A stretch of DNA of 64,000 nucleotides from Methanobrevibacter ruminantium M1. GTDB taxonomy: Archaea > Methanobacteriota > Methanobacteria > Methanobacteriales > Methanobacteriaceae. The notes beneath the pieces were generated by a model. That model ran no database searches and was not told the DNA's origin. It worked only from the letters and a program-made list of their open reading frames with translations. Both the position numbers and the translations under genes were made by a program. Below, piece after piece: positions 32,674 to 48,105 of the stretch; positions within the stretch are counted from its first letter, which is position 1; every line of letters begins with the position of its first letter. Location of the stretch: positions 1,945,501-2,009,500 of the forward strand of contig NC_013790.1 in the NCBI RefSeq assembly GCF_000024185.1, written 5' to 3'.

Positions 32674-33897
32674 TTAAAAAATTACTTTATTGTTTTTAAT
32701 CTCATCCAATCGTTTAGCCATTTCAATAACACGAGTTCTTGAATTGTTATCTTCTGCATAATCCTCACTATAGTTTTCCTCAGGCCCCACAAGATAAAAA
32801 GCTTCCTCTGATAATACTCCGGGAATGTTCATTTTTCTAAGGTTTCGCTCAACTCTTCTCTTCAATGGCTCATCATCCATCTCCTGTGCTAGGAATATAG
32901 GTGTCTTTACCGCTGAAGATATTTTAGTGTTATGCCGCGCATTATGGCGCTCCTCAGTTCTGTTGTCTAATATTTCCTTTGATGATAGGTTTAGATTTGG
33001 ATCCCTGAATGGAATCCCCACATCAGATAATGCCATCTTTATCTCATCATTCTTTGGAAGGGACTTGGTCAAATTTTTTGGAGAGGGTGATGCCAATGTT
33101 CCTCCTTGAAACCGTCCGAAGATTGGGCCTAATGATACATAAAAATCTGCTTCAATAAATGCCATCCTTACAGGCGCTGATGAAGTATATGTACAGACTA
33201 TTCCATTATCTTTAATAACCCTTCTAAATTCCCTAAAAAAGTCCACGGATACTAACTCGGGCGCCATATTTTGACTAAAAGGATCCAAAAATATGGCATC
33301 ATAGACATTGTCCTCCAGTTTTTGTATGACTTTCCTTGCATCGTCAATGAATATATTTAAATTTATATTATCTGGTATGCTTTCTTCCTCTAAGGAGAGT
33401 GATGCATAATCTTCCGCTATAAGGGCATCCTCTATTGCCTTTTTTGTAATGTCATGTGCCTTTATAGGAGATGGAACCATCAATCCTGCTGCAAGGGTTG
33501 GCTTGGATATTTCCAGAAGGTCTATCTGGAGGTTTGCATCTTCGGTTGAATTTTTCATAAAATCGTCAATTGCTGCAGAAGTATTGTATCCTAGCCCTGC
33601 ACAAATGTCTAAGATAGCAATGTCCTGGCTGTAATCCAGTTTCAATGGCTTTATGAACTTTTCAAATGATTCGCTTATGGCTCCAGTAGAGGTGTGGAGT
33701 GTTTCCACCTTGTTATTGATTTCTTTTGATTTGATGCTGTATGACCCATCATCTGTCTTTACAAAGTATTCCTTATGACCTTTAAATATGGAGTTTCTAT
33801 ACACAGGGTCATTGTATTTTCTTTCATTTTCGAAAGCTTCATTTATTAAGTCATATATTGTATCATCAATCACTGTAGCTTCTTCGATATAAGTCAT
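32674..33897 (-). CDS. MnmC-like (DUF752) SAM-dependent methyltransferase
   Basis: 407 residues. An N-terminal extension (SIFKGHKEYFVKTDDGSYSIKSKEINNKVETLHTSTGAISES is the region around 38-80) resembles the MnmC/DUF752 lead-in, followed by a Rossmann methyltransferase: motif I IAILDICAGLGYNTSAA (about 94-110), LLEISKPTL, and the motif IV region VYDAIFLDPFSQNMAPELVSVDFF (about 196-220). A GGTLASPSP segment is typical of this family. In bacteria MnmC2 methylates nm5(s2)U34 in tRNA; here the FAD oxidase half is absent. A role in tRNA wobble modification is plausible, not proven. The C-terminal 120 residues are not recognised. AGTGATTAA precedes the ATG. Confidence 0.8.
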   Translation of the reverse strand: MTYIEEATVIDDTIYDLINEAFENERKYNDPVYRNSIFKGHKEYFVKTDDGSYSIKSKEINNKVETLHTSTGAISESFEKFIKPLKLDYSQDIAILDICAGLGYNTSAAIDDFMKNSTEDANLQIDLLEISKPTLAAGLMVPSPIKAHDITKKAIEDALIAEDYASLSLEEESIPDNINLNIFIDDARKVIQKLEDNVYDAIFLDPFSQNMAPELVSVDFFREFRRVIKDNGIVCTYTSSAPVRMAFIEADFYVSLGPIFGRFQGGTLASPSPKNLTKSLPKNDEIKMALSDVGIPFRDPNLNLSSKEILDNRTEERHNARHNTKISSAVKTPIFLAQEMDDEPLKRRVERNLRKMNIPGVLSEEAFYLVGPEENYSEDYAEDNNSRTRVIEMAKRLDEIKNNKVIF

Positions 33898-33983: not shown

Positions 33984-34457
33984 CTAATTTACAAAAATAT
34001 ATGATACTTCATTTATCAAAGCATCGAATCTTCCATCTTTTTCATAGACATTCAAATAGAAATATTCCCTAAATTCCCTCAAATACAATGTGAAATCATC
34101 AAATTTTGTTTGATACTCTTCTTGAGATATTCCACCATCCAAATAATTGAATTTTAACAAGATTAAAAGATTAAATTTAGAGAAGGAGTCAAATACTCTT
34201 AAACAATCTTCACGGTTTATAGATTCAATATTCTCTAAGACATAATAAATCATCTTTTTGATTTTAAGAAATGTGTAATATTCTCTTTCAAATTCTTCAG
34301 ATTCGTCTAGAATATCAGCCATACAAATCAATCTGCCATTTATGGAAGAAATAAAATCATGATAATCCTTTTCATCTTTTCTTGAGTAAATTGAACTTAA
34401 TGCATTAGAAATATAATTGAAAAGATTATCCAATTTCTCTTTGATTTTTACGTCCAT
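33984..34457 (-). CDS. Helical partner protein of the PIN module (locus 1, second copy)
   Basis: 157 residues, predicted almost all alpha-helical, no recognised domain. It is a clear paralogue of the gene at 35208: shared MDVKIKExL, NNISN/NYISNAL, a YVLEN/YVLDN, FDSxxKF, LEGI/LDGG, FDxYL/FTLYL and YYLNxY/FYLNVY pattern over the whole length. It is the last gene of a three-gene minus-strand run (35729 to 33984). The ATG at 34457 is chosen because the paralogue begins with the same MDVKIKE; a TTG at 34466 is possible. Partner or antitoxin role is inferred only from its position next to a PIN-like protein. Confidence 0.7.
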   Translation of the reverse strand: MDVKIKEKLDNLFNYISNALSSIYSRKDEKDYHDFISSINGRLICMADILDESEEFEREYYTFLKIKKMIYYVLENIESINREDCLRVFDSFSKFNLLILLKFNYLDGGISQEEYQTKFDDFTLYLREFREYFYLNVYEKDGRFDALINEVSYIFVN

Positions 34458-34539
34458 TATTTTCAACTCTTTTAATATAATTTTAAAACATTCTTCTGTT
34501 AAATCCCGGGAATAAATTATTTTATTGGTTAAACCTACT

Positions 34540-35192
34540 TTAATTCAATAATTTATATTTGTCAATATTTAATTTGGAAAAAGATTTGACAGCATTATAA
34601 AATTCTTCATCAACAGTCACAAATATTGTAAACTGATCTTTTGCAAAATCATGAGCATCTAAAATAATTTTACGATCCTCCTCATGAATGCCTAAATTTT
34701 CTAAAGAATGCCATAAATCACAATATTTTCTAAAATTATTTAAACCGCAATTATAAAGTTGTAGTTTATTTAACAAATAATCTTTATTTATTTCGAATTT
34801 CGAAGGAACTTCATTTGAGCATTTGACAAAACAGGAAAGGAATTCCGATTTTTCTTTAAAAAGTCCAAAAAGTATTTCTTCCCAAAAAAAATTAATCAAA
34901 TTTATTTTTTTATCCATATCCAGATTATATCACTTGTTTGTGACAATACAAATTGTTCAAAAGAACATTTATTAAGAAATATGCGATTATTATTTTCTAA
35001 AGCTAGAATAATTTCATCAAAAAAATATTCAAATGATGTGAAAATAGATTTATATTTTCGCTTATATTCCTCACAAACATTGTTTGAGCAGTAGAATTCA
35101 GTGGAATTTACAATAAAATCGTCAACTGTTTTAAAATACTTATCTGGGAAAAATGTATATGCAATCGCAATATTTGTATCAATAAAATCCAT
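34540..35192 (-). pseudogene. PIN-like nuclease split by a frameshift at an A7 slippery site
   Basis: Two overlapping frames: 34902-35192 (96 codons, MDFIDTNIAIAYTFF...) gives the N-terminal PIN strand with Asp5 and acidic CEEYKRK; 34540-34917 (125 codons) gives the C-terminal PIN part (DRKIILDAHDFA, FVTVDEEFY). Together (about 217 residues) they match the intact 227-residue protein at 49759. The break lies at ATA AAA AAA TAA; A-AAA-AAA at 34911-34905 is a classic -1 slippage heptamer directly before the stop, and slipping back one base continues as ...KKINLINFFWEE. So it may be a one-base deletion, a programmed frameshift, or transcript slippage. GGGAGG precedes the ATG at 35192, only 15 bases after the partner gene. 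Confidence 0.75.
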
Positions 35193-35207: not shown

Positions 35208-35729
35208 CTAATCAAGTATAATTTGAGATATTCTAGGTATAACATCATCAAATTCGCCAGTTCTTTGATATATATTTAAATAATATTCCGTTTTTACTTC
35301 ATCCAAATATGTATCAAATTTATTAAAATAACTTAAATATGATGATTTGGAATAAATACCTTCTAAAAAGCTAAGTTTGATTCTTAATAATTCAAAAAAT
35401 TTAAATAATGAATCAAATATGACAGATCTTTTAGAAGAGCATAGAGAACCATAATTGTCTAAAACATAATTTAACATTCTTCTAATTACTAGAAAAAAAG
35501 AAAATTCTTTTTGAAATTCTTTTAATTCTTTTAAAAACATAGCAAAATCCAACAAATATTCTTTCATTGAAGAAATTAACTCTAAAGATTTCTCTTCATC
35601 ATTTTTGTTATTTAATGATGTTAATGTGTTTGAAATATTATTAAGAAAATTCTTCAATATCTCTTTGATTTTTACGTCCATTTTGATTTCAATCCTTGGT
35701 AAAGTGATTTTTTCATTGATATTGTACAT
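35208..35729 (-). CDS. Helical partner protein of the PIN module (locus 1, first copy)
   Basis: 173 residues, helical, hydrophobic-polar pattern, no known domain. Paralogue of 33984-34457 and, more distantly, of 49167-49748 (shared FxxIRRMLNYVLDN / FREIQSMMNQTLDY, IFDSLFKF / IFNEFKNL and EYY blocks). It is first in the operon; the PIN-like gene starts 15 bases after its stop, so the two are co-transcribed and probably coupled. GAGGGTGATAAA gives a strong SD for the ATG at 35729; MDVKIKE at codon 17 aligns with the start of the paralogue. A perfect palindrome lies 60-90 bases upstream. Antitoxin-like or co-factor role is inference from arrangement. Confidence 0.72.
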   Translation of the reverse strand: MYNINEKITLPRIEIKMDVKIKEILKNFLNNISNTLTSLNNKNDEEKSLELISSMKEYLLDFAMFLKELKEFQKEFSFFLVIRRMLNYVLDNYGSLCSSKRSVIFDSLFKFFELLRIKLSFLEGIYSKSSYLSYFNKFDTYLDEVKTEYYLNIYQRTGEFDDVIPRISQIILD

Positions 35730-35881: not shown

Positions 35882-36036
35882 ATGCGATAAAATGATTTTG
35901 TGCAAAAATGCAAAGGTGAATTTATGAAAAAAATGATTTTATGAAAAAATGAAACTGTGAAAAAATGATTCTGTGACATTGTGATTTTGTGATTTTGTGA
36001 TTTTGTGATTTTGTGCAAAAATGCAAAAATGCAAAA
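35882..36036. repeat. Octamer-type low-complexity tract (TGATTTTG / TGCAAAAA)
   Basis: Near-tandem 7-9 bp words: GTGATTTTGTGATTTTGTGA (period 8, four perfect copies around 35977-36015) flanked by TGCAAAAA, TGAAAAAA and TGATTTTA variants. Related tracts occur at 38690-38755 and 40876-40920. The minus-strand frame at 35857-36087 is a product of this tract, not a gene. Confidence 0.75.
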
Positions 36037-36250: not shown

Positions 36251-36268
36251 GAATAGCCGATGCTATTC
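36251..36268 (-). terminator. Hairpin overlapping the stop of the GRE-like gene
   Basis: GAATAGC (36251-36257), loop CGAT, GCTATTC (36262-36268), spanning the stop codon at 36263-36265. Confidence 0.6.
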
Positions 36269-38296
36269 TTCAGTATCCTCTTTGGTGATTATCTCTTCTC
36301 TGATTAAGTTTATTTGGAGCTGGTCGAAACCGTATCCGATTGCTTCTACAAGGATATTGGTTAGTTGTTTGTCGTTTGTGTTTATATTTAGCTCTATAAG
36401 GTTTCCGTTTATTGCTGAGCTTTTGTAGTCTAAGCTTGAATTGAAGATGAATATATCTGAGTTTGTCTTTTGGCTTGATATTAAAAGTCTTGCTGGCGGG
36501 ATGTCCTTTAATGTGGCGTCAAAAGATGCTCTCTTATCATTCTTTATCATGTACCTTGGGGCGCTTAATCCAAACTTGAGCTTTCCGTCGAGGCTGTTTT
36601 TGTAGTCTTTTATTGAGTCGCCTATGAATGCTATTATTTCGTTGGAGATGTTTGCTATCTCAGGGTTGTTTTGTGGGAATCTTACTGGATTGTTCTTAAG
36701 GAGGAGGAATGTTTCTTGGTATTTGCCCCTTTTGAAGTTGTTTTTTCTCATCTTATCCAATTCTATAAGGTCTATGGTCTTGTCCTCAAAGACTATTTTC
36801 TTAAGGTTATATAAGCTGTTTACAGTGTTTTGGAGCCCATAGAATCTAATTCCAAAATGATTGTTTCTGGAGCCTCCTTGGGATATGTCCAGTTGGTTTT
36901 CATATGATTCAGCTGAGAATAATGATAAGAAAGGGTCTTGGTTCCATTGTATTTGATCTAGGGCGCTTATTTTTTCTTCGATTTCCTTTTTTAGATTGTT
37001 CTTATAAAGCTCCATAAGGTAGTCTAAGTTTATTATGAATCTTAACTCATTCTTGTCTTCAAATATGTCATTCAATGGCTTTAAAAGAGAGATAGATGAT
37101 AGGTTGCCTTCATCAAGGCAGGATATGAATGTAGGTTCAAGATGGGCTGATAGAATATAATTATATGCGTCATCGCTTGAGTATCCGAAGTCGAGAAGCC
37201 TTGGGATGATTGCCTCATCATTTGAGAAGACTATGTTTGAATCTATATTGGCCTCAATGGTGGCTCCGTCAGCTGTAAATATCCGATTGTCAATGATAAA
37301 ACTTACAGCGACACCCTCTTCAATGTATATTGTGTTTTCGTTAAGGCAATCTAATGCAAGGTGGATAAGGTCGTCTGGAGTCTTATAGCTTAGTCTGAGT
37401 GCTATCTTAACATCCTTTGGATTGACCTGGCCGATTGCCTCAAGGAAGATATAGGTGAGGTCATTGTAGAAATAGTATTCGCCGAACTCATCGATGTACT
37501 TTCCTCCAAGGGTGATTAGCTGGCTTGCCAGTCCTGACTCGTCATCGGTCTTATACCAGGAGTATGAATCGAGGGCCTTTAGGAAATCCTTAATCAGTTC
37601 CAATGCCTCCTTGTTAGTTATGTATCCATCATTCAGGTCGTTGTAGTAATAGTCTTCAAGGATACGGTCAAGACGGCCTAGGCTGTTTAGGCTGTGGCCT
37701 GTCTGATATAGGAGTTGATTAAGGAAAAGTATTCTTTGAAGGGCCTCTTCAAAATGGCTAGCCTTCTTGTCGATTATGTCCTCAAAGATGCGGATGTACT
37801 TTGACTTGTCATCACGGGAGGACTTTGCCAATGCCTTGTTTATTTCATATATGAGAAGCTCAATTCCATCAAGGATAGCGAGCATTTCCCTATTGTAGTC
37901 GGAGGACTGGTTTCTGAAGCCTGGACCTTCCTTAGGGTTGAAGTAAAATTCGTTGAGGTCATAGATGGAATAGTCTAGAATAAGTGAGTAGTCGATAGGA
38001 CTGTTTATTATTTGGCCATGATAGTCAAGATTTCTAAATTCGTCTAGGAAGTATATGAATCCTTCAGGATGGATTGTGATGTCTAGCTTTCTTAGAAGGT
38101 TCTTGATTTGGACCCCTTTTGAAAACTTGGAGCTTGTTATATAGAACTTGTGCATGTTTTTGGCAATGTAGCTGCTTGCATCTGTTCCAACCCCAAATCT
38201 GCGGTTTATCTTATTGTATGTGGAAGCCAATATGGCAGATGAGCTGTTTGCACTTTCCTTATTTCGAATCTTTTTAATGTTATCAAATAGACCCAT
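36263..38296 (-). CDS. Glycyl-radical-enzyme (pyruvate formate-lyase-like) homologue lacking Cys and Gly-radical motif
   Basis: 677 residues with clear PFL/GRE-barrel blocks: LNQLLYQTGHSLNSLGRLDR (191-210), NKEALELIKDFLKAL (228-242), QLITLGG (259-265), NPKDVKIALRLSYKTPDDL (292-310), NIVFSNDEAIIPRLLDFGYS (354-373) and the C-terminal LDYKSSAINGNLIELNI plus GYGFDQLQINLIREE. In active enzymes the block after SxEDA reads GCVEP; here it is SAHLEP (383-388), so His385 replaces the catalytic Cys. The chain ends right after QLQINL..., where active enzymes continue into the RVxGY glycyl loop, which is absent. A 25-residue insertion lies near 325-350. It therefore cannot work as a normal glycyl radical enzyme; a scaffold, regulatory or novel non-radical role is possible. 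GGAGG precedes the ATG. No activase gene is adjacent. Confidence 0.78.
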   Translation of the reverse strand: MGLFDNIKKIRNKESANSSSAILASTYNKINRRFGVGTDASSYIAKNMHKFYITSSKFSKGVQIKNLLRKLDITIHPEGFIYFLDEFRNLDYHGQIINSPIDYSLILDYSIYDLNEFYFNPKEGPGFRNQSSDYNREMLAILDGIELLIYEINKALAKSSRDDKSKYIRIFEDIIDKKASHFEEALQRILFLNQLLYQTGHSLNSLGRLDRILEDYYYNDLNDGYITNKEALELIKDFLKALDSYSWYKTDDESGLASQLITLGGKYIDEFGEYYFYNDLTYIFLEAIGQVNPKDVKIALRLSYKTPDDLIHLALDCLNENTIYIEEGVAVSFIIDNRIFTADGATIEANIDSNIVFSNDEAIIPRLLDFGYSSDDAYNYILSAHLEPTFISCLDEGNLSSISLLKPLNDIFEDKNELRFIINLDYLMELYKNNLKKEIEEKISALDQIQWNQDPFLSLFSAESYENQLDISQGGSRNNHFGIRFYGLQNTVNSLYNLKKIVFEDKTIDLIELDKMRKNNFKRGKYQETFLLLKNNPVRFPQNNPEIANISNEIIAFIGDSIKDYKNSLDGKLKFGLSAPRYMIKNDKRASFDATLKDIPPARLLISSQKTNSDIFIFNSSLDYKSSAINGNLIELNINTNDKQLTNILVEAIGYGFDQLQINLIREEIITKEDTEE

Positions 38297-38499
38297 AGTT
38301 AGCCTCCAATTGTAAAATAAGTTTTTAGATTAATTAATAAATTAATTATTTATAACTTATCTTAATTTTTTTAACTAATTAAAATTGAATTGTCTTTTAA
38401 TTTAATTTTAGTATATTTATTAATTAGTGATTCATTTTTAATATATTTTAAGATTTATGGGGCTTATGATGAGAATATTTTAAGAATGGGGTGAAAAAT

Positions 38500-38690
38500 C
38501 CTAAGATAAAAAGTCTTTCTATAATCTTCTTCAACAGCAAATAAACCTTTTAAAAAATCAGACAGGTTTATCTTTTTTGAATATTCCTTTCCAAATCTAC
38601 TTTTATGGTTTTCATAGTATCTTAAAATCCTTTTTGTAAAATTAGATTTACCTTTAGAGCATATAAAGATTCTTGCATCCTATATTGTGC
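38500..38690 (-). pseudogene. Remnant, copy 1, of a protein related to the 40.5-kb remnant
   Basis: A minus-strand frame reads RIFICSKGKSNFTKRILRYY...EYSKKINLSDFLKGLFAVEE and has no start codon. The DNA, with its flanks (about 38396-38710), closely matches 40447-40890 but lacks an internal block of roughly 185 bases corresponding to about 40588-40772. It is a deletion derivative of the same gene. Otherwise 38297-38847 holds only the octamer tract. Confidence 0.6.
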
Positions 38691-38847
38691 AAAAATGATT
38701 TTGTGAAATTGTGCAAAAATGCAAGTGTGAAAAAGTGAAAAAGTGAAAAAAAAGTTGGAATTAAAATTAAAAAAATAATTATTGATTAAATTATTATTTT
38801 ATTCTTCACCAATACAATCAAATAAATTTTCAACAAAGGTCAAAAAA

Positions 38848-39787
38848 TTAAATTTTTTTAAGAACAAACATGCATTGATCCCCTTGTCCTTGGGAATTTA
38901 AAAAATTGGTCTCTTTTTTATATTTTTTGATTAATTTTTTATTAGACCTAAAATCAGTCCATCCATCTTCTCCCCAAGCAATATCGTTTTGATAATTTTC
39001 ACTGAAAACAAATTGGGCATATCCACTATCAAAAATCACATCTAAAATTTTAAGGTCGGTTTTATCACATAATATTTCAAAACTTTTTAGAGTATGTAAG
39101 AAAAAGTGTCTAGGTGCATCAATTTGAAACCAATTTACTCCATATCTTTTCCAAATTGGCTCAGATTTAATCGGAATTCTTAATAAAATTAACCCATCAT
39201 CTTTAATAAGATTTTCAAAACATTTTAGATTAGCTAATTGATTATCCATATGTTCAAAAGCATGATTCGAAACAATTAAATCAAATTTTTCTGAAGGTTT
39301 ATAATCTTCTAAGGAAGTTTGAATTAAATTAATCCCCTCTAAAATATTCTCTTCTTCAATAAATAAGTCTATTCCTGTGAGATTTTTATATCCTCCTCTT
39401 TTTAATTGAGATAAAAAATTCCCATTTCCACATCCAATATCTAAAATTGAGGATTCCTTTGTAATCTTCTTATCAGAATTCAATTTATTTATTAATTTTA
39501 AATGGGGGGGGGACAAATTCTTTTGGGATTAAATTAGATAGGATTGAATTAGATAAAATTATTGCAGAACCTTTATCAAAAATTATTTCATTAAAACTTT
39601 TAGGTTTTAAATGAGGGGCATAATCTGTATCATAATATTTGTCAATATCTTTAGGGATCTCCTTAATAAAAAGACAACCACAATTTGAACATTCAATATA
39701 CTCAAATTCTTCTCTAAGGCCTATTTGCATTTCTTTAATTATGAAAGTTAAATTATTCTCCTCATTTTCACATATTGGACATTTCAT
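38848..39787 (-). pseudogene. Zinc-ribbon SAM methyltransferase, out of frame at a C9 tract
   Basis: The N-terminal part (39485-39787) has a zinc ribbon, MKCPICENEEN ... CSNCGCLFI, and a linker ending KEFVPPP; the C-terminal part (38848-39516) has motif I SSILDIGCGNGNFLSQLKRGGY, ISNHAFEHM-type motif (VSNHAFEHMDNQ) and a RIPIKSEPIW segment. This is the usual layout of type-11/12 methyltransferases with an N-terminal Zn finger found in glycan clusters. The two frames meet at nine C residues (plus-strand G9, 39504-39512). With eight C the frame is continuous (KEFVPPHLKLINKLNS...). In an A+T-rich genome such a tract is striking and typical of phase-variable genes. GGTGA precedes the ATG at 39787. 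Likely methylates a surface sugar; substrate unknown. Confidence 0.8.
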
Positions 39788-39847
39788 ATTTTCACCGTTT
39801 AATATTCTCATAATTTTCTTTAATGATAAATTTATCAGTTTCATCGA

Positions 39848-40948: not shown

Positions 40949-42376
40949 TTATCTGTTTATTAATTCTCTAATTACATATCTATCATTATCATCAATAGAT
41001 TTTGTTATAAATAGGGATATTAGATAAACTATAAATCCTACAGGTATTGCAAACCATAGGGAGAGATTTAAGTAATATAATGCTACAAAAAGGATTATTC
41101 CACAAACGATTAGTTTTATAACATTCTTCAATAGTCCTAAATCTGGTTTGTAGTCTGTTTTGAATATATGATAAAGTGTAATAATAGTAATCAATATTTC
41201 ACTAAGTACTGTAGCTATTGCTGCACCATCATAGCTAAACCTTGGAATAAGTATTAAATTAAGGCACACATTAAATATTGCTGCTATAATATAGATTTTT
41301 GTTACAGTTTTCTCCTTATCGATTGCATTTAGTAAAACTGCCGCTGCTCCATTGACAAATAGGAATGAAACTGTCCAGATAAGTATTTGGACTGGAGTTG
41401 AGGCAAGTGAGTATTGGTTGCTGTAAATAAGATCCACCACTGGTCTTGCATAGAAGAAAATGCCTATGCTGATAGGAATAATAATTAACAACAAATATTT
41501 TACAGAAAGCTCATAGCTAACTTTGATTAGATTTTGGCTTTCTTTGAAGAATTTGCTCATAACAGGGAATATTACGCTTTGGTAAACTACAAAAAATGTT
41601 GTGAAAACATTTATTATGTTGTATGCAGACTTATAAAGTCCTGTTGCATAATCTCCAGCCAAATAGGACAACATTACAATGTCAATTGAAAAATAAATAG
41701 AATAGAAGAAGTTTGTAAGTCCAAAAGGAATGGATTTGATTATTACTTCCCTTATGAAATTTGTATCCAATTCTAAATGAGGTCGGCTGAATGTTTTAAC
41801 ATATGATAAAAACATATATGAAAAATATATTGAATATGCAACAGTGTAGGCAAAGGCAATGGATATAACGCCCAAATCAAACCCTAATGTTATTAGAATG
41901 CCTATTAATAAAAAACTGCTATTTAATATAGCTCCTATGGCTTGATATTTTACTTTTTCAAAGGCCTGGAAAACTCCATTTAAAAAAGTAGTCATAGACA
42001 TGAAGATAAGTTCTATTGTAAAAACCAAAGTAACTATTATAGTTAAATGAGAGTATCCCATGACATACAAAATCAATCCACTTAAAATAAATAAGATAAT
42101 GGCTAATATAAGCTTAAATAAAAAGATATTGTTAAAATATTTCCTTACTAAATCTTTATGTTTCGCAATTTCACGAGTGATGTATGTGCTTATTCCCAAA
42201 TCCATCACTATTCCCATAAGGCCAGTGAAAGAAACTGCAAATGAGACAATGCCATAATCAGATACTCCCAGGTATCGGGCTATGATTATGGTCCATAGGA
42301 ATGCACAAATGCTTGTTATCACTTGTGAAACAGATAACCAACCAGTATTTTTAAAAATGGATTTAATTTGATTCAT
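40949..42376 (-). CDS. Polysaccharide flippase (Wzx-like, MOP superfamily)
   Basis: 475 residues with about 14 hydrophobic segments spread evenly. The N-terminus NTGWLSVSQVITSICAFLWTIIIARYLGVSDYGIVSFA and the first-half motif GISTYITREIAKHKD are typical of O-antigen/polysaccharide transporters of the MOP superfamily; the second half has VSFLFVNGAAAVLLNAIDKEK. It flips lipid-linked oligosaccharides across the membrane. It lies inside the glycan locus, downstream of a GT2 gene on the same strand (38-bp gap). A decayed second copy follows it. Weak SD (TGATAAC) before the ATG. Confidence 0.92.
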   Translation of the reverse strand: MNQIKSIFKNTGWLSVSQVITSICAFLWTIIIARYLGVSDYGIVSFAVSFTGLMGIVMDLGISTYITREIAKHKDLVRKYFNNIFLFKLILAIILFILSGLILYVMGYSHLTIIVTLVFTIELIFMSMTTFLNGVFQAFEKVKYQAIGAILNSSFLLIGILITLGFDLGVISIAFAYTVAYSIYFSYMFLSYVKTFSRPHLELDTNFIREVIIKSIPFGLTNFFYSIYFSIDIVMLSYLAGDYATGLYKSAYNIINVFTTFFVVYQSVIFPVMSKFFKESQNLIKVSYELSVKYLLLIIIPISIGIFFYARPVVDLIYSNQYSLASTPVQILIWTVSFLFVNGAAAVLLNAIDKEKTVTKIYIIAAIFNVCLNLILIPRFSYDGAAIATVLSEILITIITLYHIFKTDYKPDLGLLKNVIKLIVCGIILFVALYYLNLSLWFAIPVGFIVYLISLFITKSIDDNDRYVIRELINR

Positions 42377-45800: not shown

Positions 45801-46601
45801 TTAACGTCTCATATCCTTATGAAGCAAGCCCATATAAATATGGACATAAGCCCATCTTACAATCTTTCTTTTTACAATCCACATATGGACATTAAGCCTA
45901 AGTCCATTGACTTTTAGTTCACATTCCTTTACTCTCAAGTTTTGTTTGTCCATCCAAACATCAAAGAGACGTTCTGTTAAGAATCCATAGATTCTTTTTT
46001 GATAATCATCATATCCAGTCATGTCCACTCTTTTTTCTACCTCTGCAAGAATAGGAAATACCCAGTCACAATAAGGAGCAATGACTTCCTTAGGGGCTAT
46101 GAACATGTTGTAATAGTAGAGATCTTTTCCTTCCACAACTCGTTTATAACTATCAAGATATTCAGGACATTGTTCGCCTATAACCTCTTCACAGAGGTCC
46201 AAGTCTTTAGCATAGTTCCAATGGTCGTAGTCTTCATATACTGAGCCTAAAAGAGCAGTTGTCTTTTTAGGAAGAATAATATCATATTCAGAGAATATTT
46301 TTTCAATATCTTCTCGTTCTAACCTTTTTCCAAGTCTCCAGTTTGCAAAGTATCTTCTATAATGGACAAGACCAATTATGTCTGCAGGGCTGTTTTTCCA
46401 CATCCAGTAAAGTCCTGTTAGTTCACAGTAGGAAGAGTTTTTATTGGATATGTTATCTCCAGTATCGTCACTTACAAAGCCTAAATTGTCCTTGCCTGCA
46501 CGTCCAACAAAAAGAGGAGTGTAAATGTCGTTAGAATCAATATTTTTGATATCCTCTTCACTATGGGATACAACATAAATCTGGATATTTTGACTTGACA
46601 T
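45801..46601 (-). CDS. DUF4422 capsular-polysaccharide glycosyltransferase
   Basis: 266 residues. The DUF4422 signature runs from IYVVSHSEEDI through PLFVGRAG, SYCELTGLYWMWKNSPADIIGLVHYRRYF (residues about 57-85) and YNMFIAPKEVIAPYCDWVFPIL to GFLTERLFDVWM. Such proteins are glycosyltransferases of capsule and exopolysaccharide clusters. First gene of the GT10/nucleotidyltransferase run. AGGAATTAAATC precedes the ATG. A long palindrome lies 40-67 bases upstream. Confidence 0.9.
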   Translation of the reverse strand: MSSQNIQIYVVSHSEEDIKNIDSNDIYTPLFVGRAGKDNLGFVSDDTGDNISNKNSSYCELTGLYWMWKNSPADIIGLVHYRRYFANWRLGKRLEREDIEKIFSEYDIILPKKTTALLGSVYEDYDHWNYAKDLDLCEEVIGEQCPEYLDSYKRVVEGKDLYYYNMFIAPKEVIAPYCDWVFPILAEVEKRVDMTGYDDYQKRIYGFLTERLFDVWMDKQNLRVKECELKVNGLRLNVHMWIVKRKIVRWAYVHIYMGLLHKDMRR

Positions 46602-47007: not shown

Positions 47008-48105
47008 CTATTCTAAAGATTTAACTAACTTCAATGCCTCATCAATGACCTGCCACATGTCAAAGTACCTATACATCCCAAGCCTTCCGCCAAAGATTAC
47101 ATTGCCTTCTTTATCTGCCAAGTCATTATACCTATTAAATAGCTCAGTGTTTCTCTCATCATTCATAGGATAGTATGCCTCTTGGCCCTTTTCCCAAGCC
47201 TTTGGATACTCCCTAGTAATCACGGTCTTATCAGAGACTGCATTCTCAAAGTGCTTATGCTCAATTATCCTTGTATAAGGGGTTTCTCTATCTGTATAAT
47301 TAATTACAGCGTTTCCCTGATAGTTTTCCATATCCAAGGTCTCAAACTCAAAGTCAAGGCCTCTGTATTCAAGCTCTCCAAAGCAGTAGTCATAATACTC
47401 ATCGATCATCCCTGTAAATAAGACCCTATCTGCCATAGCCATCCATTTATCCTTATCCTCAAGAAAATCAGTGTTTAGCTCAACGTCAATTCCATCAAGC
47501 ATCTTTTCAATTATTTTAGTATATCCCCCCATTGGAATTCCTTGATAGAGGTCGTTGAAATAGTTGTTGTCAAAGGTGAACCTTACCGGAAGCCTTTTGA
47601 TAATGAAGGATGGAAGATCTGTGCAATCCCTTCCCCACTGCTTTTCGGTATATCCCTTAACTAATTTTTCGTATATGTCTCGGCCAATAAGGGAGATTGC
47701 CTGCTCCTCAAGGTTTTGAGGCTCATCAATATTTGCCTCAGCTTTTTGCTGCTTAATCTTTGCCTTGGCCTCCTCTGGAGTTTTCACTCCCCACATCTGG
47801 TAGAAGGTGTTCATATTGAAAGGAAGGTTGTATAATTCGCCCTTGTAGTTGGCAACAGGTGAGTTTGTGTAGCGGTTAAACTCCGCAAATTGATTGATAT
47901 AATTCCATACCTCTTTATTGTTGGTGTGGAATATATGCGCACCATACTTATGGACATTTATATTGTGCTTTTCCTCTGTGTAAACATTGCCTCCAATATG
48001 GCTTCTCTTTTCTATTACAAGGCAACTCTTGCCTCTCCTGTTCATTTCATAAGCAAATACGGATCCGAAAAGGCCGGACCCTACTATTAGATAATCGTAT
48101 TTCAT
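47008..48105 (-). CDS. glf: UDP-galactopyranose mutase
   Basis: 365 residues. FAD-binding Rossmann motif MKYDYLIVGSGLFGSVFAYE at the N-terminus, KRSHIGGNVYTEE, and the family blocks YGAHIFHTNNKEVWNYINQF, YTEKQWGRDCTDLP, RLPVRFTFDNNYFND and PMGGYTKIIEKML. The C-terminus has IFGGRLGMYRYFDMWQVI. The enzyme interconverts UDP-galactopyranose and UDP-galactofuranose, supplying Galf for surface glycans. Full length. GGTGAGGTC precedes the ATG. Confidence 0.96.
   Translation of the reverse strand: MKYDYLIVGSGLFGSVFAYEMNRRGKSCLVIEKRSHIGGNVYTEEKHNINVHKYGAHIFHTNNKEVWNYINQFAEFNRYTNSPVANYKGELYNLPFNMNTFYQMWGVKTPEEAKAKIKQQKAEANIDEPQNLEEQAISLIGRDIYEKLVKGYTEKQWGRDCTDLPSFIIKRLPVRFTFDNNYFNDLYQGIPMGGYTKIIEKMLDGIDVELNTDFLEDKDKWMAMADRVLFTGMIDEYYDYCFGELEYRGLDFEFETLDMENYQGNAVINYTDRETPYTRIIEHKHFENAVSDKTVITREYPKAWEKGQEAYYPMNDERNTELFNRYNDLADKEGNVIFGGRLGMYRYFDMWQVIDEALKLVKSLE

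Follow-up and report, generated by a model that had tools for sequence, protein, structure and literature searches.

On the minus strand of the window, by which we mean the whole stretch of 64,000 nucleotides that was analyzed, positions 36263 to 38296 encode a homologue of glycyl radical enzymes (GREs) that lies in a glycan locus. The frame is intact and runs over 677 codons from an ATG at 38296 to a single stop codon at 36263-36265, yielding a product of 677 amino acids (aa). The features of the gene and its surroundings are the following, with their basis in parentheses.

36263..38296, minus strand: GRE-like protein of 677 aa, a probable pseudoenzyme, intact frame (frame, Pfam match, orthologues)
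38303..38307, minus strand: Shine-Dalgarno sequence GGAGG, 6 nt upstream of the ATG (read directly)
37142..37144, minus strand: codon of His385 at the position of the catalytic Cys; SAHLEP, ancestrally SACWEP (motif alignment)
37136..37138, minus strand: codon of Glu387, the kept Glu of the CxEP motif (motif alignment)
37241..37330, minus strand: lineage-specific insert, residues 323-352, at the GxGxP-NDE loop before the Cys finger (comparison with relatives)
36251..36268, minus strand: terminator-like hairpin containing the stop codon (read of the sequence after the stop)
38848..39844, minus strand: upstream SAM methyltransferase, split by a frameshift into 119 and 222 aa; intact with 339 aa in G002 (comparison)
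34540..35192, minus strand: downstream gene that a frameshift divides into 96 and 125 aa, PIN-like by eye and without a Pfam match; intact with 241 aa in G018 (comparison)
40949..42376, minus strand: polysaccharide flippase (PF01943), conserved neighbor (Pfam, gene order)
32674..33897, minus strand: MnmC-like methyltransferase, which in the genus follows the GRE or the GRE and its activase (Pfam/NCBIfam, gene order)
45801..46601, minus strand: DUF4422 protein of the glycan locus (profile match)
47008..48105, minus strand: UDP-galactopyranose mutase (PF03275) of the glycan locus, found within the GRE operon in deep relatives (profile match)

A sequence-only reading of this DNA had described a full start, a strong Shine-Dalgarno sequence, a long intact frame, a GRE homologue with SAHLEP for GCVEP whose chain stops before the RVxGY loop, and an insertion near residues 325-350. 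It was correct on all of these points of sequence, the insertion being located here at residues 323-352, and left unstated only that the gene lies on the minus strand. Both adjoining genes are frameshifted, so that the intact frame of 677 codons is more than the sign of a quiet region.

The window protein matched Pfam family PF02901 with an E value of 1.5e-42 (146.6 bits against a cut-off of 24.3), and its top phmmer matches in the PDB were all GREs. It also matched nine GRE models of NCBIfam, in each case far under the cut-off; for TIGR01774 the score was 91.8 against a required 678. The sequence-only reading had proposed a search for the profile pair PF02901/PF01228, of which the former was recovered, and PF01228 had no match anywhere in the genome of the window (2,937,203 bases in one contig, 99.84% complete). 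Missing from the window protein or its locus are (i) the catalytic Cys on the finger loop, since His385 of SAHLEP stands where relatives and solved GREs show CxEP (Thr in G018), (ii) the C-terminal glycyl radical domain (PF01228, RVxG[YF]), and (iii) the cognate radical-SAM activase, to which the nearest proteins of the genome are 29-30% identical and fall under the cut-off of TIGR02494. The protein thus has homology to a family of active enzymes without possessing their catalytic residues, as expected of a pseudoenzyme. Two GRE-activase-like radical-SAM proteins are encoded in this genome, which has no PF01228 protein, at G000:C1:2510895-2512238 (L076) and G000:C1:78237-78941 (L077).

At the C-terminal end, the window protein closes with QLQINLIREEIITKEDTEE, where relatives continue with HPNLIVRVxGFSAYF. 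In three species, the sequence 3' of the stop was checked and contained no remnant of the glycyl loop. A glycyl loop hidden in another frame was considered and rejected, as the terminator hairpin at 36251-36268 accounts for the 'GYS' read past the stop. An assembly error or a recent truncation is ruled out, because the same end is common to three lineages and no loop remnant follows the stop. The sequence-only reading had named, as grounds for its rejection, relatives that keep the Cys and Gly and a copy that is a recent truncation; the relatives do keep both, together with the activase, and the recent truncation is refuted by the shared end.

The gene is present in 15 of the 19 genomes of the genus, usually in the order polysaccharide flippase, GRE, and MnmC-like methyltransferase, followed by flavodoxin, tRNA-guanine transglycosylase, and NAC, with family names of neighbors taken partly from Pfam/NCBIfam profile matches and partly assigned by eye. 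Its same position between flippase and methyltransferase makes the window gene a positional orthologue of the GRE of its relatives. Beyond the genus, this GRE family is represented in two more genera of the same taxonomic family and in two other families of the Methanobacteriales, there in the order flippase-GRE-activase-UDP-galactopyranose mutase. This occurrence across genera and families of the order indicates an old glycan-linked GRE family of the Methanobacteriales. The clusters in the other families (L126-L129) carry all GRE motifs and are apparently undescribed. In G012 (L110, 12660-15534), the GRE is naturally absent, the flippase being separated from the MnmC-like methyltransferase by 214 bp that hold no such gene; in G024 (L086, 5887-7754), from another genus, the GRE is broken by frameshifts and stops beside an intact activase, possibly through an assembly error. 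The viral contigs searched contained no relatives but only PFL of the E. coli type, and a literature search retrieved no earlier report naming the window gene as a GRE.

The sequences fall into three grades. (i) Grade A has SACWEP and RVWGFS in 11 of 11 sequences, as do four deeper outgroups, and an adjacent radical-SAM activase (TIGR02494, 193 bits against a cut-off of 174), which is on a separate contig in G011, at a contig break, and frameshifted in G014. Grade A proteins are 44-50% identical to the window protein and share its locus and ancestry, but they keep the Cys, the Gly, and the activase. (ii) Grade B comprises eight species, and in each of their loci the slot for the activase, between GRE and methyltransferase, is empty. 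This empty slot is seen directly, and no such activase was found elsewhere in these genomes, a statement that is weak for incomplete metagenome-assembled genomes but includes four genomes that are at least 95% complete; activases were thus found in grade A genomes only. Two of the eight grade B copies still have the Cys, which is Ser, Phe, or Tyr in the other six; the Glu of CxEP is Gly in three, and GFS is kept in all. (iii) Grade C consists of the window, G018, and G013b, all three of which are missing the glycyl domain. The Cys position is His in the window and Thr in G018 and is not covered in G013b, a contig binned with G013 that is probably a contaminant, because the methyltransferase gene would otherwise be present twice. 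The conserved GDTG motif is lost in this grade; the window and G018 both retain the Glu of CxEP and the GH histidine. The insert at residues 323-352 measures 30 residues in the window protein, 14 in G018, and 0 in the other relatives. His385 and this insert, which the sequence-only reading had named as possible clues, thus both differ in G018.

A profile built from grade A and the two further genera matched solved GREs over nearly their full length, best of all 8id0 (E 3e-70), according to its PDB title PflD bound to 1,5-anhydromannitol-6-phosphate. With GREs of the PFL2/glycerol dehydratase type (TIGR01774; PflD, 8id0 and 8yjo; glycerol dehydratase, 1r8w), the window protein has PF02901 homology across the barrel in common, and grade A aligns with them almost end to end, including CxEP and RVxG[FY]S; unlike them, the window protein has no catalytic Cys, glycyl domain, or activase. 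The domain that it lacks corresponds to GrcA, the autonomous glycyl radical cofactor (6owr), which is absent from this genome. Structure predictions reached pLDDT values of 38 and 47 from alignments of 3 and 7 rows, too poor for a confirmation of the fold; the top Foldseek matches of the predicted model were GREs, but with a TM score of 0.2, and PFL made up four of the seven rows in the second alignment. An engineered PFL, C418A/C419A, accepts the radical yet is inactive (PMC12338860). Like the window protein, it is a GRE deprived of the catalytic Cys, and cells still produce it; it differs in being an artificial variant that has Gly734 and undergoes activation by PflA. Since a Cys-less, inactive PFL can still accept the radical, the retention of the Gly in grade B is no proof of activity.

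In the GRE tree, grades B and C together form one clade (100/100), as does grade C (100/100), on a long stem. With the tree rooted on the deep outgroups, and the activase state left uncounted where the genome is incomplete, the data require one loss of the activase, one loss of the glycyl domain, and at least three losses of the Cys. The idea that Cys and Gly were lost together, raised in the sequence-only reading, must therefore be abandoned: the activase went first, the Cys then drifted several times, and the glycyl domain was lost once. The tree of the flanking genes differs: it pairs G003 (A) with G002 (B) as sisters (100/99) and places G017 (A) together with G004 and G015 (B) (98/100), although support is weak at several forks. 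The simplest reading of this conflict is that alleles of the GRE have been exchanged at a glycan locus that is itself variable.

Selection was analyzed with a GY-type codon model (F3x4) on a fixed tree. The dN/dS ratio was 0.040 in grade A, 0.084 in grade B, and 0.12 in grade C, and equality of the three grades was rejected against a model in which B and C share a ratio and A has its own (2dlnL 80). The value for the stem branch to grade C is unreliable, as dS is saturated. Neutrality (dN/dS of 1) was rejected for grade C (2dlnL 298) and for the window branch alone (24.6). The gene is thus retained by purifying selection, which upholds the earlier claim that it is maintained and agrees with the status of a pseudoenzyme. 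By region, grade A showed ratios of 0.040 (residues 1-320) and 0.041 (residues 321-660), and B and C together showed 0.065 and 0.104, respectively; the difference between B plus C and A amounted to a 2dlnL of 12 for residues 1-320 and 64 for residues 321-660 (68 for the latter with B and C separate). Identity between A and the outgroups was higher in the catalytic part (0.64 and 0.62) than in the N-terminal part (0.52), and that between two C proteins was higher in the N-terminal part (0.78) than in the catalytic part (0.60 and 0.57). The special constraint on the catalytic half is lost, and the whole protein is still constrained. Changes at the reaction center were in modest excess in grade B (p 0.015), and no excess was shown in grade C (p 0.21).

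These data make it likely that the window gene encodes a maintained GRE pseudoenzyme tied to a glycan locus, with a function that is predicted. Established GRE chemistry centers on glycyl and thiyl radicals. Given this chemistry, and since the Cys and the Gly are missing, the locus has no activase, and the genome encodes no PF01228 protein, we infer that the window protein can form neither radical. Gene order and motifs show that the ancestor was an active-type GRE whose gene, in a surface-glycan locus of the Methanobacteriales, was accompanied by one for a dedicated radical-SAM activase; they also suggest that this ancestor was catalytically competent. In one lineage, the activase was lost first, the catalytic Cys next, and the glycyl domain in its entirety last, with the protein under purifying selection all along. 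The window protein would most likely play a noncatalytic binding, scaffold, or regulatory role in the glycan pathway, chiefly through its N-terminal half, possibly by binding a sugar or a partner protein.

Counted against this explanation, and in favor of a slowly decaying relic, i.e., the gene of a former enzyme that now has no function but still has an unbroken frame, are the relaxation of selection by 2- to 3-fold in grades B and C relative to the enzyme grade and the absence of the gene from genomes such as G012. Frameshifted neighbor genes and the broken GRE of G024 point the same way. We nonetheless judge a relic unlikely, considering the dN/dS of 0.12 in grade C with neutrality rejected (see above), the open state of all available B and C copies, which have no internal stops, the identical end of the three C copies, and the single clade that B forms with C, distributed at odds with the tree of the flanking genes in the way that an exchange of functional alleles would produce. 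Reuse of the barrel for acid-base catalysis, with the kept Glu387, His201, and possibly His385, is a less probable proposal still. The persistence of the Glu and the GH histidine would fit such a nonradical enzyme, but G018 has Thr in place of His385, the Glu is not fixed in grade B, the GDTG motif is gone in grade C, and constraint is relaxed precisely in the catalytic half. PflB and FocA of Escherichia coli form a regulatory enzyme-channel pair. By analogy, the window protein might be a regulatory subunit of the adjacent flippase, whose gene adjoins or neighbors the GRE in many genomes, deep relatives included; such a role appears very improbable, since GRE and flippase divergence are uncorrelated (Mantel r 0.10, p 0.23), which counts against a specific partnership, and two flippase classes accompany the same GRE clade. 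Radical chemistry in trans, in which a separate GrcA-like glycyl domain and another activase, for which the two orphan activase-like proteins might be candidates, rescue the window protein, can practically be dismissed, as the genome has no PF01228 protein and the missing acceptor Cys leaves no carrier for a thiyl radical.

For the maintained pseudoenzyme, we tentatively suggest, at somewhat less than even confidence, a broader scenario in which two successive grades of the Methanobrevibacter GRE were co-opted for a nonradical role in surface-glycan assembly, stepwise and with the loss of the activase first, while constraint shifted to the N-terminal half. A full-text search of the literature found no natural pseudoenzyme of the GRE family. 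If our explanation is true, (i) the GRE fold is used here without its radical, (ii) the series from A to C makes the order of loss (activator, Cys, Gly) directly testable, and (iii) the annotation 'formate acetyltransferase' of such genes in rumen methanogens would be wrong. Grade A, in turn, represents a GRE family that is associated with glycan loci throughout the Methanobacteriales and has apparently escaped study.

Two further observations concern the flanks of the gene. The split PIN-like gene is itself flanked, at window positions 33984-34466 and 35208-35729, by genes for related proteins of 160-173 aa that are 39% identical to each other and have no Pfam match above the cut-off; G018 has one gene of this type and an intact PIN-like gene. 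Arrays with an 8-nt period, TTTTTGCA/AAAATCAC, flank the GRE gene at positions 35891-36029 and 38687-38750 and are the only two within the window by the scan used. A specific link of the array to the GRE was rejected on account of a third copy elsewhere (L130), beside genes that by eye resemble cas1, cas2, and an HTH gene. A 17-mer identical to part of the array occurs immediately downstream of the gene in G018 as well.
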